Shown piece after piece: positions 4,645 to 27,738 of a stretch of 35,109 nt of DNA. The notes beneath the pieces are model-generated. The model was not told the origin of the DNA. It did not search any database and worked only from the letters and a program-made list of their open reading frames with translations. The DNA is from Aneurinibacillus thermoaerophilus (GTDB lineage Bacteria; Bacillota; Bacilli; Aneurinibacillales; Aneurinibacillaceae): NCBI RefSeq assembly GCF_900099925.1, contig NZ_FNDE01000038.1:1-35109 (forward strand), read 5' to 3'. Numbering within the stretch: the first letter of the stretch is position 1; each line of letters starts with the position of its first letter. The position numbers and the translations under genes were made by a program.

Positions 4645-5265
4645 TTGAGTTTACATGTTGCAGTTTTAGGTGTTGGCGGTGTAGGTTAAGTATGTGCTGC
4701 GGAAGTTGTGAAAAAAGGGTATGTAAAAAAGTTAATTCTCGCAGATATCTTCACCGAAGGAGCAGAGAAATTCGTGAAAAAGTTACGTGAACAAACATCT
4801 GCAGAAATTGTTGTTTGTCAGGCAGATGCAAGCAGTACGGAAAGTGTTGTGGCGATTTTAACGGATGTTGATGTCTTGCTTTATGCGAGAATACCGGAGT
4901 ATAATTTTAAAGTTATGCAAGCATGCTTAGATACAAAAACACATGATATCGACATGGCTTCCGACGGCCCAGACTCGCTGTTACAGCAGTTAGATTGGGA
5001 TGGTAAATTTAAACAAGCGGGTATTGTAGGAATTATGGGATTGGGTTGTGATCTTGGATTCTCCAATGTTGCTGCTCGTTATGCCGCTGATTAAATGGAC
5101 ACTGTAAAAACAATTACTATTCTCGATGGGGATAACTCTGAAGTTGATTACGACGGCTTTTGTGCTTACTTTAGCCCGCAGACTGCAATTTTAGAGAGAC
5201 TACGGGCGCGAGGAATGGAATGGTATGTTATTAAGAAAACAAGTCCGATTATAAAAACGGCTTAA
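4645..5265 (+). pseudogene. Saccharopine dehydrogenase-like oxidoreductase, nonsense-mutated and truncated
   Basis: One frame runs from a TTG at 4645 to 5265 but carries stop codons at 4687-4689 (right after the Rossmann motif VLGVGGVG) and 5092-5094. Between and after the stops the sequence still reads as one saccharopine dehydrogenase-type NAD(P)-binding protein: LHVAVLGVGGVG at the start, KKLILADI, IVVCQADASSTESV, GIMGLGCDLGFSNVAARYAAD, then MDTVKTITILDGD beyond the second stop. About 207 codons remain of a family usually near 400. It lies upstream of a permease and looks like the first gene of an amino-acid-use operon that has decayed. The function before decay is uncertain. Confidence 0.82.
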
Positions 5266-12432: not shown

Positions 12433-13794
12433 ATGAATTTCAATGAGCATTATTTTTCTTTGCATGACAACGTACAATTACATTTAAATCCGGTACAAAG
12501 CTCATTGCTCCGACCTTCCAGCGAACGAACTGAAATTACTGACAATCGTGTGTCCGCCATCAACAAAACCGCCGCAGAGCTGTTAATGCGGTGTGATGGT
12601 ACGAAAACAGGATTGGAAATTTTAGAGGAAGTATGCAAGCAATACAAGGAAGCTCCTTCTACTCATTATGTGTGGGTACGCGATTTTTTCATTCAACTCA
12701 AAGGAATGGACATTTTGCAGGAGATGGAACAGCCATCCCATAAAAAAGTAAAAGTGTCCGGAAATTTTGATTATCCTACCCCCGTTCATGCTACCGTTGA
12801 ACTGCTTGCCCGATGCAATCTTCGCTGCGCTCACTGTTATCGGGAAAGCAATCCGGAAGTTGAAGACACGATGAGTTATGAAGACGTAATGCGCCTGTTT
12901 TCTATTCTAAAAGATAACGGAATCTATACGTTGGAACTAACCGGTGGAGAAATTACGATTCATCCTCACTTTTTGCCTGTACTTGAAGAAGCGCTTAACA
13001 AATTTGAATTGGTTGGATTGTTAACAAATGGAACAAGAATTACAGATGAAATGATTCATATTTTGCTTCCTTACAAAGAAAAAGTATTTTTCAGCATTTC
13101 TTTGGACGGGCCGAACGCTGAAGTACATGAAGACCTTCGCCGTGTCAAAGGAGCGTTCCGGCGGACATGCGAAGGCATAAAAAAATTAGCGGATGCTGGC
13201 ATTCGCGTCCGCGCCGCGATGAGCGTCTATCCAAAAAATATGTGGCTTATTGAAGAAACTTTGCTGCTTGCGAAAGAACTAGGAGCTATATCGTTCAGCT
13301 ATTCCAAAGTTGATCCCTTTGGTCGGGGAACGAACATCTTGTTCGAAAAAAAGAAGGGAAAAGAGTTTACGGAGTATTTTGAATACGAATCATCCCTGAT
13401 TCAAAAACATAAAGACTTTATTGCTCTGCTTACAGACGATCAAATGCGGCTTTCAAAAGCACGGACGAACTGCGGAGCCGGCTGGCGCTCCATTACCATT
13501 AACCCGTTTGGAGATGTCCGCCCTTGCGTACTGTTTCCGCAGGGGGTGATGGATCTGGGCAATGTATTTCATCAGCCGTTTGAAGACATCTTCCGTTCGG
13601 AGAGAGCGCTACAGCTTTTTCGAATGACGGCTCCTGTAAAAAGTGAAACGTGCAACCCAAATTGTAAAAACAAAAATTATTGTAATGGGTGTGTGCTTCG
13701 TGCCATTGAGGCGAACTCGCATTACAAGAAGCCATGCGGATGGATTGAAGAAAATGGGCTCGCTTCCTACACTAAGCACCCAGTGTTTGTATAA
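12433..13794 (+). CDS. albA: Radical SAM/SPASM sactionine synthase, AlbA-like
   Basis: The 453-residue enzyme should install Cys sulfur to alpha-carbon thioethers in the precursor. Residues 1-110 form a PqqD-like peptide-recognition domain. The radical SAM cluster is CNLRCAHC with Cys128, Cys132 and Cys135, followed by the SAM-binding LTGGE at 169-173. The SPASM region carries Cys347, 365, 407, 411, 417, 420 and 435, the seven-cysteine set for two auxiliary 4Fe-4S clusters. B. subtilis AlbA has nearly the same length and cysteine positions. TGGAGGAATAAA precedes the ATG. It follows the precursor by 205 bases and shares its operon. Confidence 0.93.
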   Translation: MNFNEHYFSLHDNVQLHLNPVQSSLLRPSSERTEITDNRVSAINKTAAELLMRCDGTKTGLEILEEVCKQYKEAPSTHYVWVRDFFIQLKGMDILQEMEQPSHKKVKVSGNFDYPTPVHATVELLARCNLRCAHCYRESNPEVEDTMSYEDVMRLFSILKDNGIYTLELTGGEITIHPHFLPVLEEALNKFELVGLLTNGTRITDEMIHILLPYKEKVFFSISLDGPNAEVHEDLRRVKGAFRRTCEGIKKLADAGIRVRAAMSVYPKNMWLIEETLLLAKELGAISFSYSKVDPFGRGTNILFEKKKGKEFTEYFEYESSLIQKHKDFIALLTDDQMRLSKARTNCGAGWRSITINPFGDVRPCVLFPQGVMDLGNVFHQPFEDIFRSERALQLFRMTAPVKSETCNPNCKNKNYCNGCVLRAIEANSHYKKPCGWIEENGLASYTKHPVFV

Positions 13795-13875
13795 CGAACA
13801 CCGGACAGGGATATCCGCCTGAGAAAAGGATATCCCCATTCTTTTCATGATATCCACGGAGAAAGGATTTATGAA

Positions 13876-15627
13876 ATGAAAACCGAGCAACAACATAGCC
13901 ATAAGGCTTCACAAATCTTATGGCGCTTATTGAAAGAAAACCGGAAATTTGTCAGTTGGTGGTTCGTCTTACTGGTTTTTACTTTGGTTACGACTTTGCT
14001 TATTTCTTCTATCCCGTTGGTTGTAAAAGAAATTATCGATCAGGCCCTGCTGAAAAACAATACAGCTTTGCTCTTTCAATTACTTTGCCTTCTTTTTTCT
14101 ATTTATCTTGTCCATATCCTTTTGGAAGGTGTGAAAACATATATTCAAACGCTGGTTGGACAGCGAGCTGTGGCGATTTTTCGGCTGCGACTGTTTCGGA
14201 AAATACTGTCTCTTCCGGCCGCTTTCTACGACCGTCATCCTACGGGAGATATTCTCAATCGAATGGAAGGTGACATTAATGTTGTTGATTTCCTTACATC
14301 CAGGCTTCTCTTTCTCAGCTTTTCACAAATCATGATGATGATGTATAGTCTCGGCATGATGGCGTATTTAGATTGGAGACTTTTTCTAGTAAGCGCCGTC
14401 TTGTTTCCGACTGTTTATGCGGTTCAAATGTATTTTGGAAAAAAGATTAAACAAAAAACCCTACAGTTACGCACCTTTGCCTCAGGCATTTTCACAGCTA
14501 CGCAAGAGAGCATAATCGGCATTCGATTCATTCAGGAAATGGGAAGGAGATTATTTGTTGGAACCCGTTATATTAAAAGCCTGCGCAGCGTGATTCGTCA
14601 ACAATTGCACCTTGCACGCTTCTCAGTCTTTGCATCTGCAGCAATGAGCGGAAATGTGATCTTTATGCTACTAATTTCTTATGGTTTAGGGGGATATTTT
14701 GTTACTCAAGATTTGCTTACTCTAGGTACGCTTATTGCATTTAATACATACATCGAAAAATTATATTCTTCGCTGACGGTTGCTTCAACCTACTGGATTG
14801 AAATGCAGCGGGCAGCAGCAAGTGTGGAGCGTTTATATTGGTTGCTTGACCAGCCTTCCTTATCACGAGATGGACAACGGCTTGAGCGTTTGCAGGGACA
14901 TATTGTGTTTCGTGATGTGTCTTTTCATTATGAAGGGAAGCAACAGACGTTGGAAGACATTACGTTTGACATTCAACCTGCGACCACCACAGCTATTGTA
15001 GGTGCGAGCGGCTCCGGAAAAAGTACGCTCCTTTCCTTGATTATGGGGCATTATCCGGTGGCGAAGGGAAACATTTTCATTGATGGGATTCCGCTTTCAT
15101 CGCTGTCGCTTACCAGCCTGAGGAAAAAGATCGGGGTTGTATCGCAACAGCCTTTCTTCTTTTTGGCGACTATACGCGAAAATTTACAACTGGTAAAAAG
15201 GGAAGCAACTGATGAAGAATTATATGAGGTTTTGGAAGAAGTAGGGTTGGGAGGATGGGTGAAAGAGCTTCCCAATGGTTTGGATACTATGGTAGGAGAG
15301 CGCGGTCTTCAGTTATCAGGTGGACAAAGGCAAAAACTTGCACTTTCCCGTGTTATCTTGCAGAATCCTGATATAATTATTTTAGACGAAGCTACTGCTT
15401 TCTTGGATAATTTGTCGGAGGAGCAAATCAAGCGTTTGCTTCGCTCCCGATTTTTTGGAAAAACCATTGTAATGGTAGCTCATCGCCTATCTATGGTACG
15501 TGAAGCGGATCAGGTCATTATGATTGAAAATGGGCGCATATGTGCGCAAGGAACACACGAATATTTGTTTGCTACTTCTCTTTCCTATCAAGCTTTGTGG
15601 AAAGATGAGGTTTCTGCCTTTACATAA
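13876..15627 (+). CDS. ABC exporter (fused membrane and ATPase domains)
   Basis: The 583-residue half-transporter has a six-helix type-1 exporter membrane domain (about residues 25-310) and a nucleotide-binding domain (about 345-583). Walker A GASGSGKST is at 376-384, the signature LSGGQ at 480-484, and Walker B ILDEAT with Asp504/Glu505. It lacks the N-terminal C39 peptidase domain that would cut a double-glycine leader. The subtilosin cluster has no such gene, so this is an addition, most likely exporting the modified peptide. GAGAAAGGATTTATGAA precedes the ATG. Spacing to albA is 81 bases. Confidence 0.9.
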   Translation: MKTEQQHSHKASQILWRLLKENRKFVSWWFVLLVFTLVTTLLISSIPLVVKEIIDQALLKNNTALLFQLLCLLFSIYLVHILLEGVKTYIQTLVGQRAVAIFRLRLFRKILSLPAAFYDRHPTGDILNRMEGDINVVDFLTSRLLFLSFSQIMMMMYSLGMMAYLDWRLFLVSAVLFPTVYAVQMYFGKKIKQKTLQLRTFASGIFTATQESIIGIRFIQEMGRRLFVGTRYIKSLRSVIRQQLHLARFSVFASAAMSGNVIFMLLISYGLGGYFVTQDLLTLGTLIAFNTYIEKLYSSLTVASTYWIEMQRAAASVERLYWLLDQPSLSRDGQRLERLQGHIVFRDVSFHYEGKQQTLEDITFDIQPATTTAIVGASGSGKSTLLSLIMGHYPVAKGNIFIDGIPLSSLSLTSLRKKIGVVSQQPFFFLATIRENLQLVKREATDEELYEVLEEVGLGGWVKELPNGLDTMVGERGLQLSGGQRQKLALSRVILQNPDIIILDEATAFLDNLSEEQIKRLLRSRFFGKTIVMVAHRLSMVREADQVIMIENGRICAQGTHEYLFATSLSYQALWKDEVSAFT

Positions 15628-15650
15628 CCATACAAGGAGGAGATAACATC

Positions 15651-15803
15651 ATGAATCAGCTTATCTTTCGGCTCGTCATTCTGGCTTTATTTATCTTTGT
15701 GGCCATCAAAAACGGGAACAAAGGCGGATGGGTCACCTATGCGATTTGGGCTGCGGCTGCCATTTGGGCCATTGATACTATAAGAAGGGTTCGGAAACGA
15801 TGA
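15651..15803 (+). CDS. Small membrane peptide, AlbB-like
   Basis: The 50-residue peptide has two hydrophobic segments (about 4-19 and 27-43) and an Arg/Lys-rich tail RRVRKR. A perfect AAGGAGGAG lies at good spacing before the ATG. Its stop overlaps the start of the next gene (ATGA), so it is translationally coupled to the ATPase. Its place between the albA part and the albC/albD pair is the same as AlbB (53 residues, two-segment membrane peptide) in the subtilosin operon. Sequence similarity to AlbB is weak, so the call rests on position, size and topology. It may take part in producer immunity. Confidence 0.75.
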   Translation: MNQLIFRLVILALFIFVAIKNGNKGGWVTYAIWAAAAIWAIDTIRRVRKR

Positions 15804-16534
15804 AGACGGCTTTCGTACTTACTGTAAAAAATCTAAGCAAAACATACGGGGAATACAAGGCGGTTCACCCTTTGACTTTTTGTATACGACCCGGAGAAAT
15901 TCACGGTTTATTAGGTCCAAATGGCGCTGGAAAAACCACTACAATTAAAATGATTATTGGTGTCTTAGAGAAAACGTCTGGAGATATTGAAATCAATGGC
16001 ATTTCTTTGCAGGAGGAGCCAGTCCGAGCGAAGAGGAATGTATTTTATGTACCCGATCATCCTGTGCTTTTTGAAAAAATGACTGGAAAAGATTTTTTAT
16101 CTTTTATGGCTGATCTGTATGGTGTTGATTACTGTTCGTCTCTTGTTGAAATTGAATCGGTGATAAATCGGTTTCAGCTGACTCCACATCTAGCAAAAAG
16201 CATTGGTGAGATGTCGCTTGGAACCCGGCAAAAACTGTTGCTTACCGCCGGTCTTATGGTGCGGGCTCCACTGCTTATTCTGGATGAACCGATCGTAGGT
16301 CTCGATCCTGAATCGATCCTGTATTTTAAGGAATGCTTGCGCGAGTATGCCCAGCAGGGAGGAGCCGTCCTGTTTTCCACACACCTGTTATTCATGGCTC
16401 AGGAACTATGTACTCATCTGGTCGTTATGAAACAAGGAACGATGATCGCTGCCGGGCCTGCCAGCGAACTCATATCAAAACAAAACCAAAATCTGGAGCA
16501 GGTATTTATGGAGATGATAGCACATGGGGAGTAA
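15800..16534 (+). CDS. albC: ABC transporter ATP-binding protein, AlbC-like
   Basis: This is a stand-alone ATPase of 244 residues. Walker A GPNGAGKT is at 39-46, the signature is the divergent SLGTRQK at 139-145 and Walker B LILDEP has Asp162/Glu163, followed by the H-loop STHLL. It belongs to the DrrA/CcmA-like class used for immunity or export of peptides and matches AlbC in size and operon place. The start overlaps the small membrane peptide gene and the stop overlaps the next gene by 11 bases, so it pairs with the following membrane protein. Immunity (peptide removal from the membrane) is the likely role by analogy. Confidence 0.88.
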   Translation: MKTAFVLTVKNLSKTYGEYKAVHPLTFCIRPGEIHGLLGPNGAGKTTTIKMIIGVLEKTSGDIEINGISLQEEPVRAKRNVFYVPDHPVLFEKMTGKDFLSFMADLYGVDYCSSLVEIESVINRFQLTPHLAKSIGEMSLGTRQKLLLTAGLMVRAPLLILDEPIVGLDPESILYFKECLREYAQQGGAVLFSTHLLFMAQELCTHLVVMKQGTMIAAGPASELISKQNQNLEQVFMEMIAHGE

Positions 16535-18023
16535 AGCGACCTGGCTGCTTGCGCGAACGATCTTGCGAGACTATTTTACTTTTACCAAGAAAAAGACGAT
16601 TTTATTTATCGTGACGATAATATTGTTGTGGAACGTTCTTTATGAAAATGCAGGGCTTTTTTTTCACAGTGTTTCCTTCCTCTCGCCTTCAAATCTTGTG
16701 ATGCTTTCGCTGATCGGAACGCAAATTATTTTTTTATATGTGACATTTAACTGGTTGATGTCAGCGCTTTATTACGGCAAGAATACAGAAACGCTGCTGG
16801 CCCTGCCCTTTACTAAAAGCCGGATCGTATGGACTTATTTTGCGGTGACCTTGTTGCGGTTTTATGCCTTCAAATTGTTATTTTTCTTGCCGCTTGTATA
16901 CGCGGCGATGAGAGCAGGCGACTCTTCCTGGACGGAGTGGGGCCTTATCATGGCCAGCCTCTTTCTGTTTCCGGTTTTCACGCAAGAGCTTTCTTTGCTG
17001 CTTTTGTTAGTTCTCTTTTCATTTTCTGTAAGAAAAGGGGGGCAGCACATCGCAATAATCCTAGCGGCAGTGCTGTTCATTCTCACTGCTGCGCTCTGGC
17101 TTCGAAGTCATCCAGCGTATCTTAACGCGATAGCGGAAACGGTACATCATCCAGCATTTTGGTTCGGGCTGAGCGGGAGTATTGGGGCGTTAGCCGTTCT
17201 TCTTCAATTTTTCATTGAAAAAAGCTGGCTAAAAGGGCGTGAGCAGGCGAAGCAAACGAGCGTTGCGGCCGATTTTCTGCCCGGGATGAACAATCAATTG
17301 CTGAAAAGGGAAATCAAAAACTTTTTTCTTACGCCTACGTTTATTATTAACTATATTGCCATGGCCATGCTGGGAACAGTGTTTGTATTCTTTTTCATTA
17401 ATAACTTATCGGCGCAGCTGTTTCCTTCCATTTTTTCCGCAGATGACATATTCATGCGAGGAAGCGCTATTTTTGCGGCGATTTATTTGTTAGCCATGAT
17501 GATGTCAAGTTCTACCGTAGCATTTTCGCGGGATGGAACGGAATGGACATATCTGCGTTGCCTTCCGCTTTCTTTTTCGGCACTTTTTCATATCAAGCTT
17601 TGGTTTTGTTATGCTGTAGATATATTGGCTGTCTTTCCGGCTGCAATCTTTTTATTCTGGTGGCTTCCGCTCGGCTCGGTTGTTATGATACCCGTGCTTG
17701 GGGTTGCGATCGCTGGAAGCATTTTGACGCAAACCCTTGTCAAAATGGCTGTGGATGCTATATGCCCCCAGTTTGCGTGGAACAGTCCGGCGCAAGCGCT
17801 GCGCCATCCGAAACGCTATATTGCCTATTTGGTGAATCTTATCGTTATGGGTTTATACGGAGGAATTGGCTGGGGTTCCTATCACTACGGAGTGTTTTCC
17901 TTTTTTGAAACAATTTTTCTTATTATATTAATGGAAGCTATAGTAGCCGCGTTTCTTTATTTATTTTTACGCATTGAAGGAAAAAAAGCGGATCGTCTTT
18001 CCAGCTGTATATTGAAGGTATAA
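16524..18023 (+). CDS. albD: ABC transporter membrane subunit, AlbD-like
   Basis: The 499-residue integral membrane protein has about twelve hydrophobic segments in two halves split by a hydrophilic region near residues 230-260 (KSWLKGREQAKQTSV). It overlaps the ATPase gene by 11 bases, so the two form one transporter. Position and topology match AlbD, which is somewhat shorter. The last gene of the cluster: a hairpin follows at 18044. Genes for AlbE/AlbF-type M16 peptidases and AlbG, which follow albD in B. subtilis, are absent; the next gene is on the other strand. Confidence 0.8.
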   Translation: MGSKATWLLARTILRDYFTFTKKKTILFIVTIILLWNVLYENAGLFFHSVSFLSPSNLVMLSLIGTQIIFLYVTFNWLMSALYYGKNTETLLALPFTKSRIVWTYFAVTLLRFYAFKLLFFLPLVYAAMRAGDSSWTEWGLIMASLFLFPVFTQELSLLLLLVLFSFSVRKGGQHIAIILAAVLFILTAALWLRSHPAYLNAIAETVHHPAFWFGLSGSIGALAVLLQFFIEKSWLKGREQAKQTSVAADFLPGMNNQLLKREIKNFFLTPTFIINYIAMAMLGTVFVFFFINNLSAQLFPSIFSADDIFMRGSAIFAAIYLLAMMMSSSTVAFSRDGTEWTYLRCLPLSFSALFHIKLWFCYAVDILAVFPAAIFLFWWLPLGSVVMIPVLGVAIAGSILTQTLVKMAVDAICPQFAWNSPAQALRHPKRYIAYLVNLIVMGLYGGIGWGSYHYGVFSFFETIFLIILMEAIVAAFLYLFLRIEGKKADRLSSCILKV

Positions 18024-18099: not shown

Positions 18100-18963
18100 C
18101 TATTTTTGTTGCAAATAAGGAGTCACCTGCTCGATAACTTGTTGTAACGCTTTGGCATTCATTTCGTATTCCTGCTTGACTTTTTGATCTGTCGTTTCAA
18201 GTGCGAAACTTTCTAAATCGGCTTGGCATTTTTTCAAGGTCGCCAATACTAACGGAAGTTCCTGGGGAGTTGGCACCGTAATGTTATCGTTATACAAATC
18301 GACATATAGCTGGCCATAGCTATCCACCTGGCCCAAATATACATTATCCAAGGATACTCCTATTTTATCCAAGGCGGTGTGCAACCATCTTACAGATAAA
18401 CCAGCCGCCTTAAGAGGTTCCAGCATAATCTTGCCGTCCAGAATGACGGTTTGCGCTTCTTTTACCGGGGCTGGTTTCATCTGCAAGTCGCTTGGGGTAA
18501 GCGGCTGTTTGTCTTTTTTCAACAGCACGCTAACCTCCCCGTTTTGTTCAAGGACAGCAAATTCCACATCAGCCACAGAAAACACATTTTTTAAACGCAG
18601 CTGTTCCAATAATTCCTCTCCAGCATATCTTTCCTTTTTTAGATTTTCCTCCATGATCTTTCCATCTTTTATCAGAACAGTCGCATTCCCCTCCACAATG
18701 TCATTAAACTTTTTATTTTTGAGCGCTAAATAACCGAAAAGAATAGGAATAAGCGCCCAGATAAATAAACTGGTAAAGCCATGCAGCCAATTCGCTTCAA
18801 GGTCGGATGAAATAAAGGCCGCGAGCGAACCTATGGTAATTCCTACCACATAATCAAAAAAAGTTATTTGGGAAAGTTGGCGTTTTCCCATCAATCTTGT
18901 TAAAAAGAGCAATACAACAATGGATATAATGGAACGAATAATCACTTCTAAAAAATTAGGCAA
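18100..18963 (-). CDS. DUF421 (YetF/YdfS-type) membrane protein
   Basis: The 287-residue protein has three N-terminal membrane helices (about 5-25, 38-55 and 62-80) with the family motif TRLMGKRQLSQITFFDYVVGITIGS. Two copies of the small soluble YetF-type domain follow (LIKDGKIMEENLKKERYAGE..., then ILDGKIMLEPLKAAGLSVRW). The extra C-terminal helical tail is of the kind seen in the longer Bacillales members. These proteins are common in spore formers; some affect spore properties, but the molecular role is not established. The TTG start at 18963 has AAAGGAGGGAG upstream. It is a single gene. Confidence 0.85.
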   Translation of the reverse strand: MPNFLEVIIRSIISIVVLLFLTRLMGKRQLSQITFFDYVVGITIGSLAAFISSDLEANWLHGFTSLFIWALIPILFGYLALKNKKFNDIVEGNATVLIKDGKIMEENLKKERYAGEELLEQLRLKNVFSVADVEFAVLEQNGEVSVLLKKDKQPLTPSDLQMKPAPVKEAQTVILDGKIMLEPLKAAGLSVRWLHTALDKIGVSLDNVYLGQVDSYGQLYVDLYNDNITVPTPQELPLVLATLKKCQADLESFALETTDQKVKQEYEMNAKALQQVIEQVTPYLQQK

Positions 18964-19140
18964 TAGACTCCCTCCTTTGACAACAAAGATGCAAATTTTT
19001 TTCGTTTATAGTTTGCTTTGCAGGCGTAAATGATAAACATGGAATTTTGAAATTTGTTGCTTTAGACCTTACGTTTTCAATACGTAATCAGGTATTTCGT
19101 CAGGCCGGACATTTCGTCTAATTTAAAAATAAATCAATCA

Positions 19141-19225
19141 ATTCAAAAATGAATAATTACTTATGTATCAAAAGTTTTTTAAATATATCAGAAATAGTAA
19201 AAATGGTTTTTATTCAAAAATGAAT
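19141..19225 (+). promoter_or_regulatory. Two identical palindromes, candidate activator sites upstream of the sigma-54 promoter
   Basis: ATTCAAAAATGAAT occurs twice, at 19141-19154 and 19212-19225. Each copy is an inverted repeat (ATTCA, four A, TGAAT). They lie about 220-300 bases upstream of the -24 element, the usual range for enhancer sites of sigma-54 activators. A further inverted repeat TTACG/CGTAA lies near 19070. Confidence 0.5.
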
Positions 19226-19438
19226 CAATCGGAAGTTGAGCCGATGAGAAGTCTACGTGAAGAAACATGGAACGGGTGAAAAGCGAGTTGAATGTTCTCC
19301 GGAATAAGTACCAGCTTGCGTATGGTATGATTATCAAGAGCGAGAAAATGATACAGAACGACGACGGAAATAGCAAAAGCCATCGGTATTAGTCAACCTT
19401 TCGTTTCTCGTAAAATTAAAAAATACAGAATAAAATAA
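19215..19438 (+). pseudogene. Relic of a sigma-54-dependent activator
   Basis: Short pieces of one protein remain in shifting frames: a MERVKSELNVLRNKYQLAYG linker-type stretch at 19267-19326, KSEKMIQ as at the start of an AAA+ domain, then, after a frame change, TTTEIAKAIGISQPFVSRK and KKYRIK ending at 19438. The last part matches the C-terminal helix-turn-helix of TyrR/RocR-like activators. The AAA+ core is missing, so the gene has an internal deletion. It sits directly before a sigma-54 promoter, where such activators are often found. A sigma-factor region-4 fragment is a less likely alternative. Confidence 0.5.
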
Positions 19439-19441
19439 AAA

Positions 19442-19457
19442 TGGTATAGAATTTGCA
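19442..19457 (+). promoter_or_regulatory. Sigma-54 (SigL) promoter of the aminotransferase operon
   Basis: TGGTATA-GAAT-TTGCA has the invariant GG (19443-19444) and GC (19455-19456) separated by exactly 10 bases, and matches TGGYAYR-N4-TTGCW throughout. It lies 44 bases before the ATG. Control by sigma-54 and an enhancer-binding activator is known for gab genes of the Bacillus cereus group. Confidence 0.8.
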
Positions 19458-19500
19458 AATTCTAAAGAAACGAAATTACGTGCCAGAGGAGAGAATTTGC

Positions 19501-20844
19501 ATGACAGAGAATAGCTGGATGAAATTGTTCAAAAAGATGCCGGATTTGCTTGCGCCGACGATGGCGAAAGATCACCCGAATTTGCCGGTTGTGAAGGAAG
19601 AAGGATGTTATTACTACGGATTGGACGGCAAGAAGTATCTAGATTTCACATCAGGCATTGCGGTAGCGAACACCGGACATCGACATCCAAGAGTAGTGCA
19701 GGCGATTAAAGACGCTGCCGATCGGCTTATGCACGGACCGTCCGGGGTTATTATGTATGAATCGCTGCTTCGTTTGGCAGATGAATTGACACGCATCATG
19801 CCGAAAGGACTGGATTGTTTCTTCTTTGCGAATAGTGGCACGGAAGCGATTGAAGGAGCTATCAAGTTGGCCAAGCATGTTACCAGAAGACCGTATGTAG
19901 TTTCATTTACAGGGTGCTTCCATGGGCGTTCTCTGGGAGCATTAAGCGTCACTACTTCAAAGAGCAAGTACCGAAAATATTTGCAACCGAACGGATTGAC
20001 GTATCAACTGCTGTATGCGAATCCGAAAGATTGTCCGCCAGAGGAAAATCCGGACACGTACTTCGCAAGCAAGCTGGAAAAAGACGCGGCTTCTCTGTTT
20101 GCGCATCAGGTCACTCCCGAAGAGGTGGCGTGCATGATTCTGGAGCCGGTGCTCGGAGAAGGAGGATATATCGTGCCGCCGCAAGGCTGGTTGCGCAAAG
20201 TACGGGAGATTTGTGATCGGTATGGAATTTTGCTGATCTTCGACGAGGTACAGACTGGATTTGGCCGCACGGGCGAATGGTTTGCCGCGCAAACGTTTGG
20301 TGTTACTCCTGATATTATGGCGATAGCCAAAGGGATCGCTTCCGGACTTCCGCTAAGCGCGACGGTCGCCTCCAAGGAGCTAATGAAACAATGGCCGCTG
20401 GGCAGCCATGGTACAACATTCGGCGGCAACCCGATTGCGTGTGCGGCGGCGCTCGCAACGCTGGAAGTATTTAAAGAAGAAAGGTTATTGGAAAATTGCC
20501 GGGAAGTTGGGGCTTATGCCCGTGAAAAGCTGGAAGAGTTGAAAGCCATGCATTCGGTGATCGGTGACGTGCGTTCAGTCGGACTGATGATTGGTATTGA
20601 GGTTATTAATCCGCGTACCGGTGAACCGAACGGCGACGGGGTCATGCATATTTTGAACCGTTGCCTGGAGAAAGGGGTTCTTTTCTATCTGTGCGGAAAT
20701 AAGGGTGAGGTTATTCGTATGATTCCTCCGTTGACCGTAACGAAAGAACAGATTGATGATGGGCTGCGAATACTGGATGAAGCACTTACTGAATATGAAG
20801 CGGACATGGGAGTAAGTTCGGTGATGTCCGGCGCTGGATGTTAA
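19501..20844 (+). CDS. gabT: Class III aminotransferase, probably 4-aminobutyrate/5-aminovalerate type
   Basis: The 447-residue PLP enzyme has the class III signature [12 protein letters not shown] (Asp248 for the pyridine nitrogen) and the Schiff-base lysine Lys277 in [25 protein letters not shown] at 111-125 binds the cofactor phosphate, and [17 protein letters not shown] is also present. It moves the amino group of GABA or a related omega-amino acid to 2-oxoglutarate in the cytoplasm. AGAGGAGAG precedes ATG 19501; a TTG further upstream at 19453 overlaps the promoter and is rejected. It is first in an operon with a sodium symporter 68 bases downstream. GABA is the best guess from family and sigma-54 control; ornithine or beta-alanine are alternatives. 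Confidence 0.85.
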
Positions 20845-20912: not shown

Positions 20913-22346
20913 ATGAGCGTACTTGATACAACTGTTGTTCTTCTTTATTTTATTATTTTAATCGTTGTGGGATTTGTCGGGGCGAAAAAGGCGAAGACTG
21001 CAGAAGACTACGCATTGGCAGGAAGAAATCTTGGTTTGTTTATATATCTTGGATGTCTTTCCGCCGTTATTCTTGGTGGAGCATCCACAATCGGAACCGC
21101 TAAGTTAGGATATCAGTTCGGTCTTTCCGGGATATGGTTTGTTTTCATGATTGGCCTTGGTATTACCGTGCTTGGACTCGTTTTTATTCATCATATTTAC
21201 GGGGCGAATGTAACGACAATCAGCGAGTTGTTGGGGCGGCGGTACAATAAGGAAACACGCTTGCTTAGCGCGTTGGTAGCTGCTATTTATACGATGATGG
21301 TTTCTGTGACCCAGGTTATAGGGATCGGAACCATTATTAACGCAGTGCTTGGCTGGAATATGACTGCTTCCATGTTGATAGGTGGAGGGATCGTGCTGTT
21401 TTACACGATTCTAGGGGGCATGTGGAGCGTCACAATGACAGACATTATCCAGTTTATTATTATGACTGTCGGTATCTTCCTGTTTATGCTGCCAATGAGC
21501 CTGTCACATGTGGGCGGATGGGAAGCGCTTACTTCCCGTTTGCCGGCTACGTATTTTGATTTTACATCGATGGGTTGGGGCGAAATTTTCCAATACTTCT
21601 TGCTCTATACGCTGGGCATGGTAGTATCGCAGGACATTTGGCAGCGCGTGTTCACAGCACGTACGACTAAAATCGCGCGCAGCGGCGCAGTATACGCAGG
21701 GCTCTATAGTTTTATATACGCGCTGGCGCTGAGCATCATCGGTATGTGCGCGCTGGTGGCGTTGCCGTCTCTTAAGGATACACAGAATGTATTCGCGAAA
21801 ATGGCGCTGGAGATTCTGCCTCCTGGTATTCTCGGGCTCATTCTTGCAAGCGTGTGTTCCGCGTTGATGTCTACGGCTTCAGGAACATTACTGGCTTCAT
21901 CGACGCTTTTATCGCACGATATTCTGAAGCAATACTGGCCAAAGGATATCAGCGATAAGAAGTTTGTTTTTTTGTCGCGTCTAATTACATTAGTGATTGG
22001 AGTTATCGCCATTATGTTTGCTATCTGGATTCAGGACGTGCTTGTGGCGTTGGATGTAGCATATGCCATTCTATCAGGAGCGATTTTTGTTCCGGTGGTT
22101 CTTGGATTTTTATGGAAAAAAGCAACAGCAAAAGCTGGCCTCTATTCTATTGTTATTAGTTCACTGGTGGTGTTCGGGAGTTTGGCGGTTGAAGGACTCA
22201 GTTCCACCAATCCGATCATATATGGAATTGTGACCAGTATTGTATCAATGGTTGTTCTTTCATATGTGAGCCAGCCTTCTTCTCCGTCGCAGGAGGTGAA
22301 TCGGTTTGTAGAAGAGGAAGAGGGCAGAAAGTTGATAAATGGGTAA
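20913..22346 (+). CDS. Sodium:solute symporter (SSS family)
   Basis: The 477-residue protein has about 13 membrane segments and the SSS signature pieces AEDYALAGRNLG, STIGTAKLGYQFG, YTILGGMWSVTMTDIIQF and SALMSTASGTLLASSTLLSHDI, the last with the Ser/Thr residues of the Na2 site. It couples sodium entry to uptake of an organic solute. GGAGGAAAATAG precedes the ATG. Operon position after the aminotransferase suggests its substrate is the amino donor used by that enzyme, such as GABA or another omega-amino acid; this is inference. A strong terminator follows. Confidence 0.87.
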   Translation: MSVLDTTVVLLYFIILIVVGFVGAKKAKTAEDYALAGRNLGLFIYLGCLSAVILGGASTIGTAKLGYQFGLSGIWFVFMIGLGITVLGLVFIHHIYGANVTTISELLGRRYNKETRLLSALVAAIYTMMVSVTQVIGIGTIINAVLGWNMTASMLIGGGIVLFYTILGGMWSVTMTDIIQFIIMTVGIFLFMLPMSLSHVGGWEALTSRLPATYFDFTSMGWGEIFQYFLLYTLGMVVSQDIWQRVFTARTTKIARSGAVYAGLYSFIYALALSIIGMCALVALPSLKDTQNVFAKMALEILPPGILGLILASVCSALMSTASGTLLASSTLLSHDILKQYWPKDISDKKFVFLSRLITLVIGVIAIMFAIWIQDVLVALDVAYAILSGAIFVPVVLGFLWKKATAKAGLYSIVISSLVVFGSLAVEGLSSTNPIIYGIVTSIVSMVVLSYVSQPSSPSQEVNRFVEEEEGRKLING

Positions 22347-23809: not shown

Positions 23810-23936
23810 AGGTTTCATTTCCAATTTTTTGATATAGTTTTTTTATAAAGAATATTATGATATAATTTCATTTCTAAAAACTTGTTTTCGTTATATATGT
23901 AGCAGAGAAAAAATAAGGGGAGAGTTGAGAGGGAGA

Positions 23937-25277
23937 ATGAAGCAGTCAGAGCAATGGACATCGAAGTTGGGATTCATTTTGGCGGCTGCCGGTTCGGCGA
24001 TTGGTCTTGGCGCTATTTGGAAATTTCCTTATGTCACTGGGACGAGCGGAGGTGGCGCGTTTTTTGTTTTGTTTCTTTTATTTACGGTACTCGTCGGTTT
24101 GCCACTTTTGCTTGGTGAGTTTGTCATTGGCCGCAGCACGCAGCAGGAAGCGATTACGGCCTATAAAACGATTGCACCCGGGACAGGTTGGCATTGGATT
24201 GGCCGGCTTGGCGTTGTGACGTGTTTCATTCTACTATCTTTCTACAGCGTAGTAGGCGGTTGGATTGTATTGTACTTGTTCCGCAGTGTAACAGGTCAGT
24301 TAATTGATGTAGAAGGCGGTTATGAAAAGCTGTTCGAAACCGTTATTGCCGATCCGGTCATGACGGTCGGTGCGCAGTTTGTTTTTATGCTGTTCACGAT
24401 TTTTGTCGTAGCCCGGGGCGTGCAGGACGGGATTGAAAAAGCAAATAAGTATATGATGCCGGCTTTGTTTCTCTTGTTCCTCGTGCTGATTATTCGCTCT
24501 TTGACACTGGATGGCGCGATGAAAGGTATAACGTTTTTCCTGCGGCCTGACTTTTCGAAGCTGACTTCGGAAGCGGTGTTGTATGCGCTGGGGCAATCGT
24601 TCTTTTCGCTAAGTGTTGGTGTGTCGGTTATGGTTACGTACAGTTCGTATCTCGCCCAAAACGAGAGTTTGCCGCGTTCAGCAGCGTCTATCGTCGGTCT
24701 GAATCTGTTGATTTCCCTGCTTGCAGGATTGGCAATTTTTCCGGCAGTGTTCTCGTTAGGTGTAGAGCCGACGGCAGGGCCTGGATTGCTCTTTATGGTG
24801 CTTCCGTCGGTATTTTCGAAAATTCCGCTGGGTGGCTTATTTTTAACCATTTTCCTTGTACTGTTTTTGTTTGCAACACTGACATCTGCATTTTCCATGC
24901 TGGAAATTATCGTCGCTTCACTGGTAAAAGGCGATATGACAAAGCGTAAAAAGATAGCTTGGCTTACCGGTCTGCTGATTTTTGTGGCAGGTGTTCCTTC
25001 AGCGTTGTCTTACGGCGTATTAAGTGAATGGACGATATTTGGCAAGAGTATTTTTGATGCTGCTGATTTTCTTGTAAGCAACATTCTGATGCCGCTTGGC
25101 GCGTTGCTGATTGCTATTTTTGTACCGCTGAAGATGAAGAGGGATATGCTGCTCAAAGAAATCAGTATGGGTTCAACGAACGGACGGCGTTTTTTCGCCG
25201 TATGGCTTATGCTTTTGCGTTATGTGGCGCCGATTGTCATCATAATTGTCTTTATGGATGTGTTAGACGTTATATAA
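23937..25277 (+). CDS. NSS family sodium-dependent transporter, copy 1
   Basis: This 446-residue neurotransmitter:sodium symporter homologue has about 11-12 membrane segments. The first helix region [26 protein letters not shown] carries the unwound sodium/substrate site, and the GGGAFFVLF helix follows. [19 protein letters not shown] and the [11 protein letters not shown] region are also typical. It imports an amino acid or related solute with sodium. The ATG at 23937 aligns with the start of copy 2; a TTG at 23925 is possible. Copy 2 at 26398 is similar over nearly its whole length. The substrate is unknown. Confidence 0.87.
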
Positions 25278-26397: not shown

Positions 26398-27738
26398 ATG
26401 AGTAAACATACGCAATGGACATCGAGACTCGGGTTTATTCTGGCGGCTGCCGGTTCGGCAATCGGTCTCGGCGCCATCTGGAAGTTTCCTTATATGACCG
26501 GAACGGGAGGAGGCGGCGCATTTTTTGTTGTATTCCTCCTGTTTACCGTATTCATTGGAATGCCGCTATTGCTTGCGGAATTTATTATCGGGCGCAGCAC
26601 GCAGAAAGAAGCGGTTAGTGCGTATAAAGCGCTTGTTCCTGGAACAGCCTGGCCGTGGCTCGGCCGGCTTGGCGTTTTGACGTGCTTTATTGTACTGTCA
26701 TTTTACAGCGTAGTCGGTGGTTGGATTTTGCTGTATTTATTGCGTGGCGTTAGCGGACAACTGTGGGAAAGCGGTGTAACGTATGAACGGTTATTTGAGC
26801 AAATGATCGCTAATCCGTACGAAACTGTTGGGGCTCAGTTCGTGTTTTTGCTGTATGTGATATATGTGGTGGCCCGAGGCGTGCAGGACGGGATTGAGAA
26901 AGCGAATAAGTATATGATGCCAGCGCTGTTTTTGCTGTTTATCGCATTGATTATCCGTGCGTTGACGCTGGACGGAGCATGGGAAGGCGTTGTATTTTTT
27001 CTGAAGCCTGACTTTTCGGAACTGACGTCGGAAGCTGTGCTGTATGCGATGGGGCAATCGTTTTTCTCACTAACTGTGGGCGCTTCGGTTATGGTTACGT
27101 ACAGTTCATATTTATCAAAACGGGAGAGCTTGACGAAATCAGCGACATCTATTGTAAGCTTGACGGTGCTTATTTCTTTTTTAGCCGGCTTGGCGATTTT
27201 TCCGGCGGTATTCTCGCTCGGACTTGAACCGACGGAAGGTCCCGGCCTTTTATTTATTGTTCTTCCATCTGTATTTAGCAAGATACCATTTGGCGAACTA
27301 TTTTTTGTAATTTTTCTTTTGTTGTTTTTGTTTGCGGCGCTGACGTCTGCTTTTTCCATGCTGGAGATCATTGTAGCCGCATGGACAGGAGGCCGGCAAG
27401 AAAAACGGAAGAAAGTTGCTGTGTTCGCCGGGCTCCTTGTATTTCTTGTAGGTATTCCATCCGCGCTGTCATTTGGTGTTATGAGCGATGTGACATGGTT
27501 TGGGAAGACGGTGTTTGACATTGCGGATTACGCAGTGAGCAATGTAATGCTTCCCCTGGGCGCGTTATTGATTGCGATTTTTACGCCGTGGAAAATGTCG
27601 AAAGAAACATTGAAGCGCGAATTGAGCATAGGCACGAGCCATGGGGAAACATGGTTCGCTGCGTGGTTCCTTTTTATTCGTTATGTGGCCCCGGTTGCAA
27701 TTGTCATTGTTTTTCTTGATGTAACTGGAATTATATAA
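26398..27738 (+). CDS. NSS family sodium-dependent transporter, copy 2
   Basis: The 446-residue protein is alignable end to end with the transporter at 23937. It shares [26 protein letters not shown](V/L)[32 protein letters not shown] and [13 protein letters not shown]. Differences cluster in the second half of the loop after helix 3 and near the C-terminus. AGAGGAGAGAG precedes the ATG. A terminator follows at 27774. The two copies are related by an old duplication, since synonymous sites differ widely. The substrate is unknown; two copies may differ in affinity or specificity. Confidence 0.87.

Follow-up and report, generated by a model that had tools for sequence, protein, structure and literature searches.

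The gabT operon described here is probably controlled in trans by a sigma-54 activator encoded on another contig (contig 39), its own local regulator having been lost while the operator was retained; on the sequences compared we put the probability of this reading at about 0.78. At the sequence level there are a remnant of the local activator, a shared operator, a single intact reader with an SQP helix, an intact sigL gene and an intact promoter. In the mechanism proposed, the twin palindromes upstream of the promoter would be enhancer sites of one clade of PAS-AAA+-HTH sigma-54 activators, and the gabT-linked member of this clade would have been destroyed here by two deletions. Its surviving clade mate, the contig-39 activator, would bind the sites in the window, activate the gabT operon in trans and also control the agmatinase-family gene that adjoins it, the signal being presumably GABA, agmatine or a related amine. 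The window is the whole analysed stretch of 35,109 nucleotides; it corresponds to contig 31 of a draft assembly that comprises 103 contigs and 3.66 Mb.

The gabT operon and its upstream region

The following features were distinguished:

19141..19154, no strand: palindrome 1, ATTCAAAAATGAAT, putative enhancer site; its counterpart in genome G007 is L066:6095, which has one mismatch
19212..19225, no strand: palindrome 2, ATTCAAAAATGAAT, within which the dead local activator presumably had its ATG (19220); its counterpart in G007 is L066:6165, again with one mismatch
19220..19279, plus strand: remnant piece 1, probable N-terminus, ending at TGA, after which the PAS core is missing; weak matches at L119 and L128
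19267..19350, plus strand: remnant piece 2, PAS/AAA+ linker in a different frame, MERVKSELNVLRNKYQLAYGMIIKSEKM; corresponds to G007 activator residues 131-159
19352..19438, plus strand: remnant piece 3, helix-turn-helix of the C-terminus as far as the stop, the AAA+ core before it missing; matches the G007 activator
19442..19457, plus strand: sigma-54 -24/-12 element of the gabT operon, TGGTATAGAATTTGCA; aligned with the G007 sigma-54 element
19501..20844, plus strand: gabT-like class-III aminotransferase, 447 aa; PF00202, NF005993 over its cut-off
20913..22346, plus strand: sodium:solute symporter gene, presumably the second of the operon; PF00474

The perfect GG-N10-GC promoter, which the preliminary description had placed before the gabT operon, was found again as TGGTATAGAATTTGCA at 19442-19457. 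Its GG occupies positions 19443-44 and its GC positions 19455-56 in the context TGG..TTGC, and 43 bp separate the element from the gabT ATG (19501). Reading frames of both gabT and the symporter gene are open. GABA transaminase models shown for the aminotransferase score below their cut-offs; the name gabT is retained for the product of 19501-20844, its specificity to GABA being putative. Identity of GabT is 89% to the Parageobacillus protein, 85% to that of the same-genus genome G002 and 80% to that of the same-family G007, and its greater closeness to Parageobacillus makes gene transfer possible.

Both copies of ATTCAAAAATGAAT are exact, starting at 19141 and 19212, as had been claimed for two identical ATTCA-AAAA-TGAAT palindromes upstream. 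Their starts are 71 bp apart, and the distances from their ends to the promoter are 288 and 217 bp. With up to two mismatches allowed, the window contains 5 matches, where shuffled sequences average 1.52 and 2/100 of them reach 5. Palindrome 2 (19212-19225) overlaps the ATG leading into the activator N-terminus, and the same overlap was noticed in L128 (-1476 from gabT) and L119 (-1559 from gabT); an activator occupying this site could obstruct the start of its own gene.

Elsewhere in the window, a gene for what resembles a radical-SAM/SPASM protein stands ahead of ABC transporter genes (12433-18023), possibly forming a peptide-modification cluster; a 128-aa frame (4708-5094) before an amino-acid permease resembles what we take to be a truncated saccharopine-dehydrogenase-like gene; and two similar genes, presumably for sodium-dependent neurotransmitter-type symporters (23925-25277 and 26398-27738), surround a small heat-shock-like gene.

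Remnant of the local activator

Between palindrome 2 and the promoter, a sigma-54 activator of the PAS-AAA+-HTH type is preserved as three fragments in two frames. The linker and helix-turn-helix pieces are clear, with E values against the G007 activator of 4e-8 for piece 2 (370-bp stretch searched) and 6e-6 for piece 3. Piece 1 is the weakest match, resembling the activator N-termini of Brevibacillus massiliensis (L119, E 0.012) and Priestia aryabhattai (L128, E 0.11). Piece 3, which ends in ...KIKKYRIK and a stop codon before the promoter, is also preceded by a stop and contains no ATG, GTG or TTG of its own.

In G007, which belongs to the same family but another genus, an intact activator (L066:6213-7595) stands directly upstream of gabT, and this locus aligns with the window in three blocks: 19120-19225 with L066:6074-6178, where both palindromes are included, 19259-19351 with L066:6597-6690, and 19331-19472 with L066:7489-7631, comprising the helix-turn-helix and the promoter (the DNA similarity of the piece 3 region to G007 thus starts at 19331). 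A segment of 418 bp in G007 corresponds to 33 bp in the window and a further 798 bp to none, therefore neither the PAS core nor the AAA+ core is left. Relative to G007 about 0.8 kb is absent between pieces 2 and 3, which leaves the remnant without the intact AAA+ domain of a sigma-54 bEBP. The preliminary description of an activator remnant deprived of its AAA+ core was right as to the fragments, the HTH end and the AAA+ loss, and incomplete in that the PAS core has been lost too. A sequencing error was rejected as the origin of the remnant, since besides the stop it shows two deletions, with net losses of about 385 and 800-820 bp relative to G007. In the activator tree the remnant filled 15% of the columns and was placed unreliably outside the clade of 44; this position was not used, and kinship of the remnant is based on the piecewise matches rather than on the tree.

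The twin-site homologues of G007 are 70 bp apart and carry one mismatch each. They start 1505 and 1435 bp before the sigma-54 element, versus 301 and 230 bp in the window. Judging from this alignment, the two deletions appear to have drawn the twin sites from about 1.4-1.5 kb to 0.23-0.30 kb of the promoter.

The contig-39 activator as the presumed reader

The proposed search for more copies of the palindrome was carried out across the genome and gave two further exact ones, both on contig 39, so that the four exact copies are the window pair and the contig-39 pair only. The latter flanks an intact gene for a 473-aa PAS-AAA+-HTH activator: one palindrome stands 5' of the gene, and the other overlaps its stop codon and ends 66 bp before the sigma-54 element TGGTATGAGATTTGC of the adjoining agmatinase-family gene (TIGR01230, 217 bits at a cut-off of 174; NF002564, 298 bits, just below the cut-off of 302). 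The sigma-54 elements of gabT and of this gene have the GGTAT form in common. A relaxed search (N at position 6, one mismatch allowed) yielded 20 matches in the genome against 7 for the reversed control; 16 of the 20 are inexact, a loose sigma-54-like match follows only one of these (L037), and all 16 were left out of the regulon. Exact palindromes occur in 7 of the 11 family genomes, 17 in total, where the reversed control gave a single match. Of these 17 sites, 14 adjoin a sigma-54 element or the gene of an SQP-type activator, while the remaining three (one in G005, two in G008) lie within predicted genes with neither beside them.

All domains of the contig-39 activator score over their cut-offs (PF00158 242.8 bits, PAS_4 33.6, HTH_50 38.8), and by its Sigma54_activat domain, PAS sensor and C-terminal HTH it may be classed as a sigma-54-dependent bEBP. 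The checks suggested earlier for sigL and for intact PAS/AAA+ activators were run. There is a single sigL match in the genome, an intact frame of 469 aa, and among the 20 strong PF00158 matches (4 further ones are weak and stand outside the 20) the SQPSVVR helix and the LGISQPSVVRRLQKY ending are found only in the contig-39 activator. Compared with G002, pN and pS are 0.10 and 0.79 for gabT, 0.12 and 0.79 for the contig-39 activator. A separate observation concerns L001 (contig 51, 115278-115781), where a strong match to the sigma-54 activator AAA+ domain belongs to a 389-aa frame ending without a helix-turn-helix.

Link between the SQP helix and the palindrome

The activator sample was composed of the source genome, 30 loci from more than 100 family-search matches and 80 named loci encoding GabT relatives. 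Eighty distinct EBPs passed the filter; it left out L006, L013, L015, L017 and L019 (of the 20 in the genome) and L087, and all six, when viewed, had no SQP helix. The motif ATTCA-N4-TGAAT is located within 400 bp of 32/44 EBPs with an SQP[ST] helix versus 0/36 others. Other spacers from 0 to 11 were registered for 0 or 1 of the 44 and for 0-2 of the 36, and scrambled arms gave a mean of 0.17/44. The p value of this association, 1e-12, is not to be taken literally, as many loci are close kin; within the window's family alone the proportions are 5/6 versus 0/35. The strict motif is absent within 400 bp of 12 of the 44 SQP activators, and for nine of these 12 a site with a single mismatch lies at the 5' end. 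A quick tree unites the 44 in one clade (SH-aLRT 99), which splits into 34 gabT-type rows including G007 and 10 rows where the contig-39 type is joined with the Geobacillus type (96).

When counted from gabT (a recount over 70 loci), the strict motif lies within 3.5 kb of the gene start in 29/38 loci with an SQP activator versus 2/32 without. Since these 32 of the 70 gabT-like loci have no SQP activator in the DNA examined around gabT, SQP control is not universal for gabT. The 14-mer with at most one mismatch was absent from the flanking DNA examined for all 25 members of four other EBP clades. Tentative candidate palindromes seen beside other clades are AATGC-N6-GCATT (4/5, the best) for that of L010 and GATGC-N4-GCATC (4/9) for that of L014, where two further patterns, GATGC at a spacer of 5 and GCCAG at a spacer of 6, are equally frequent (4/9). 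These are hints that related activators may be kept apart by distinct gapped palindromes, i.e. by separate operator codes.

Arrangement of the sites in relatives

In G002, a genome of the same genus, the 85% identical gabT is preceded by the sigma-54 element TGGCATTAAATTTGC and two sites 20 bp apart, no activator trace was found in the 400 bp upstream of gabT, and an intact activator of the contig-39 type (82%) is encoded on a different contig. Five loci of the Geobacillus group have a gabT of 86-89% identity and, not more than 5 kb from it on the opposite strand, the gene for a sister of the contig-39 activator; sites stand upstream of a sigma-54 element in 5/5 cases (3 exact, 2 with one-mismatch sites only). 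In G003 and G005 they are located between an activator of the contig-39 type and a symporter gene bearing its own sigma-54 element.

An activator gene stands directly before gabT in 15 of the 70 loci (L107-L176), and all 15 have sites (at most one arm mismatch) at its 5' end: 14 by script bounds and the fifteenth, L123, by inspection, its site falling inside an over-extended open frame. No site was found between the last 250 bp of the activator gene and gabT in any of them. Sites at the 5' end of intact gabT-linked activators would therefore either exert their effect over some 1.4 kb or serve the activator's own gene. An extra ATTCA-N4-TGAAT within the 3' coding part of the activator, 172 bp before the frame end, was noticed in 10/10 loci of Halobacillus, Pseudalkalibacillus and kin (L136, L137, L139, L140, L142, L143, L144, L147, L149 and L173), where 5' sites are present besides.

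G004 and G006 have exact palindromes (L068:5539, L072:6396, L069:6877 and 6896), with the nearest copy 54-61 bp before the sigma-54 elements of genes for a methyl-accepting chemotaxis protein in both genomes and an aldehyde dehydrogenase in G004. No SQP helix was seen among the 22 stronger of the 30 PF00158 matches in these two genomes. Their sites, which speak against the reading proposed here, may be read by another EBP type or be orphans.

Alternative explanations

The preliminary description left a choice between a second activator elsewhere and a silent operon. The sequences strongly favour the former because sigL is intact, the contig-39 activator is flanked by the only other exact palindromes, helix and palindrome are linked, and G002 and the Geobacillus group have the layouts described. 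That the operon is silent or uninducible, with palindromes and promoter left as relics of the activator's decay, is unlikely. The local activator is broken by two deletions and a stop, and a relic promoter could persist after a recent loss, but both window palindromes are perfect as opposed to one mismatch in each G007 homologue, the promoter retains GG-N10-GC, the gabT and symporter frames are open, and a full reader with the same sites is present on contig 39. It is still harder to assume that some other EBP of the source genome reads the palindromes. Such a protein could be imagined by analogy with G004 and G006, where sites and sigma-54 elements exist with no SQP-type EBP among the matches viewed. 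However, none of the 36 non-SQP EBPs has the motif within 400 bp, the flanking DNA examined for the 25 members of other clades is likewise devoid of the 14-mer within one mismatch, and the sole EBP gene at an exact site in the source genome is that of the contig-39 activator.

The least probable of the readings considered makes the palindromes purely autoregulatory operators of the dead activator, with no enhancer role for gabT, and has gabT transcribed from a sigma-A promoter. The position of sites at the activator 5' end in the 15 activator-gabT loci, and never between the end of that gene and gabT, agrees with it. Yet the only sigma-70-like matches in 18960-19520 are two on the minus strand, a number that shuffled sequences give as well, and sites lie about 41-215 bp upstream of the sigma-54 elements before Geobacillus and G002 gabT as well as before agmatinase, symporter, receptor and dehydrogenase genes. 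Control of gabT by the contig-39 activator thus remains the preferred reading. A narrower version of it, to which we give slightly less than even odds, is that the paralogue took over gabT through the shared operator as the gene's own destruction moved the sites from 1.4-1.5 to 0.23-0.30 kb. If so, enhancers of the intact family would routinely act at long range, over the gene of the activator itself, and the present genome would be a natural deletion experiment.

Relation to known systems and significance

In Bacillus subtilis the sigma-54 activator RocR acts on rocG through a downstream enhancer at a distance of more than 1 kb. The intact gabT-type loci resemble this case in having a sigma-54 activator with a site over 1 kb distant; regulator, operator and pathway are different, and in the present genome decay has shortened the distance. 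The clostridial PrdR model NF041552 was top-scoring for both activators, with 417.0 and 400.3 bits. PrdR is likewise a PAS-type regulator with AAA+ and HTH in the same order, but these scores are far under the cut-off of 795, and neither activator is classed as PrdR.

According to PMC4279683, sigma-54 control of gabT by the PAS activator GabR is established for the gabT-gabR-gabD cluster of Bacillus thuringiensis, where the GabR footprint is 96 bp long and includes a 21-bp inverted repeat. The present locus is similar in its gabT with a -24/-12 promoter, PAS-AAA+-HTH activator and sites upstream of the promoter, while it differs in that the B. thuringiensis activator is intact within the cluster and here the local one is dead and its presumed reader is on another contig (PMC4279683). 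A GabR-type activator inside the gab cluster is thus represented by fragments only in the window and is intact in G007. The B. thuringiensis gabT promoter pattern was found in 0/398 sampled genomes of the class, and the deleted 21-bp repeat is absent from the primers printed in PMC4279683. In the accessible text of a 2025 sigma-54 survey the predicted targets include 4-aminobutyrate aminotransferase and arginase/agmatinase COGs, and no operator or activator for the 4-aminobutyrate aminotransferase and agmatinase COGs was found in that text (PMC12316311). Literature searches gave no title on sigma-54 or GABA control among the papers listed for the ATTCAAAAATGAAT palindrome and no described operator site for the SQP-helix activator clade.

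Based on these data one can assume that, sigma-54 control of gabT being already known from B. thuringiensis, what is new here is most likely the loss of the regulator, the retention of its operator and the takeover in trans by the contig-39 activator. The specific operator ATTCA-N4-TGAAT may be assigned to a clade of Bacillales sigma-54 activators, and the predicted regulon would join agmatinase-family genes, gabT-like aminotransferases, symporters and aldehyde dehydrogenases. The window would then exemplify the loss of a regulator whose sites have been retained for a paralogue.
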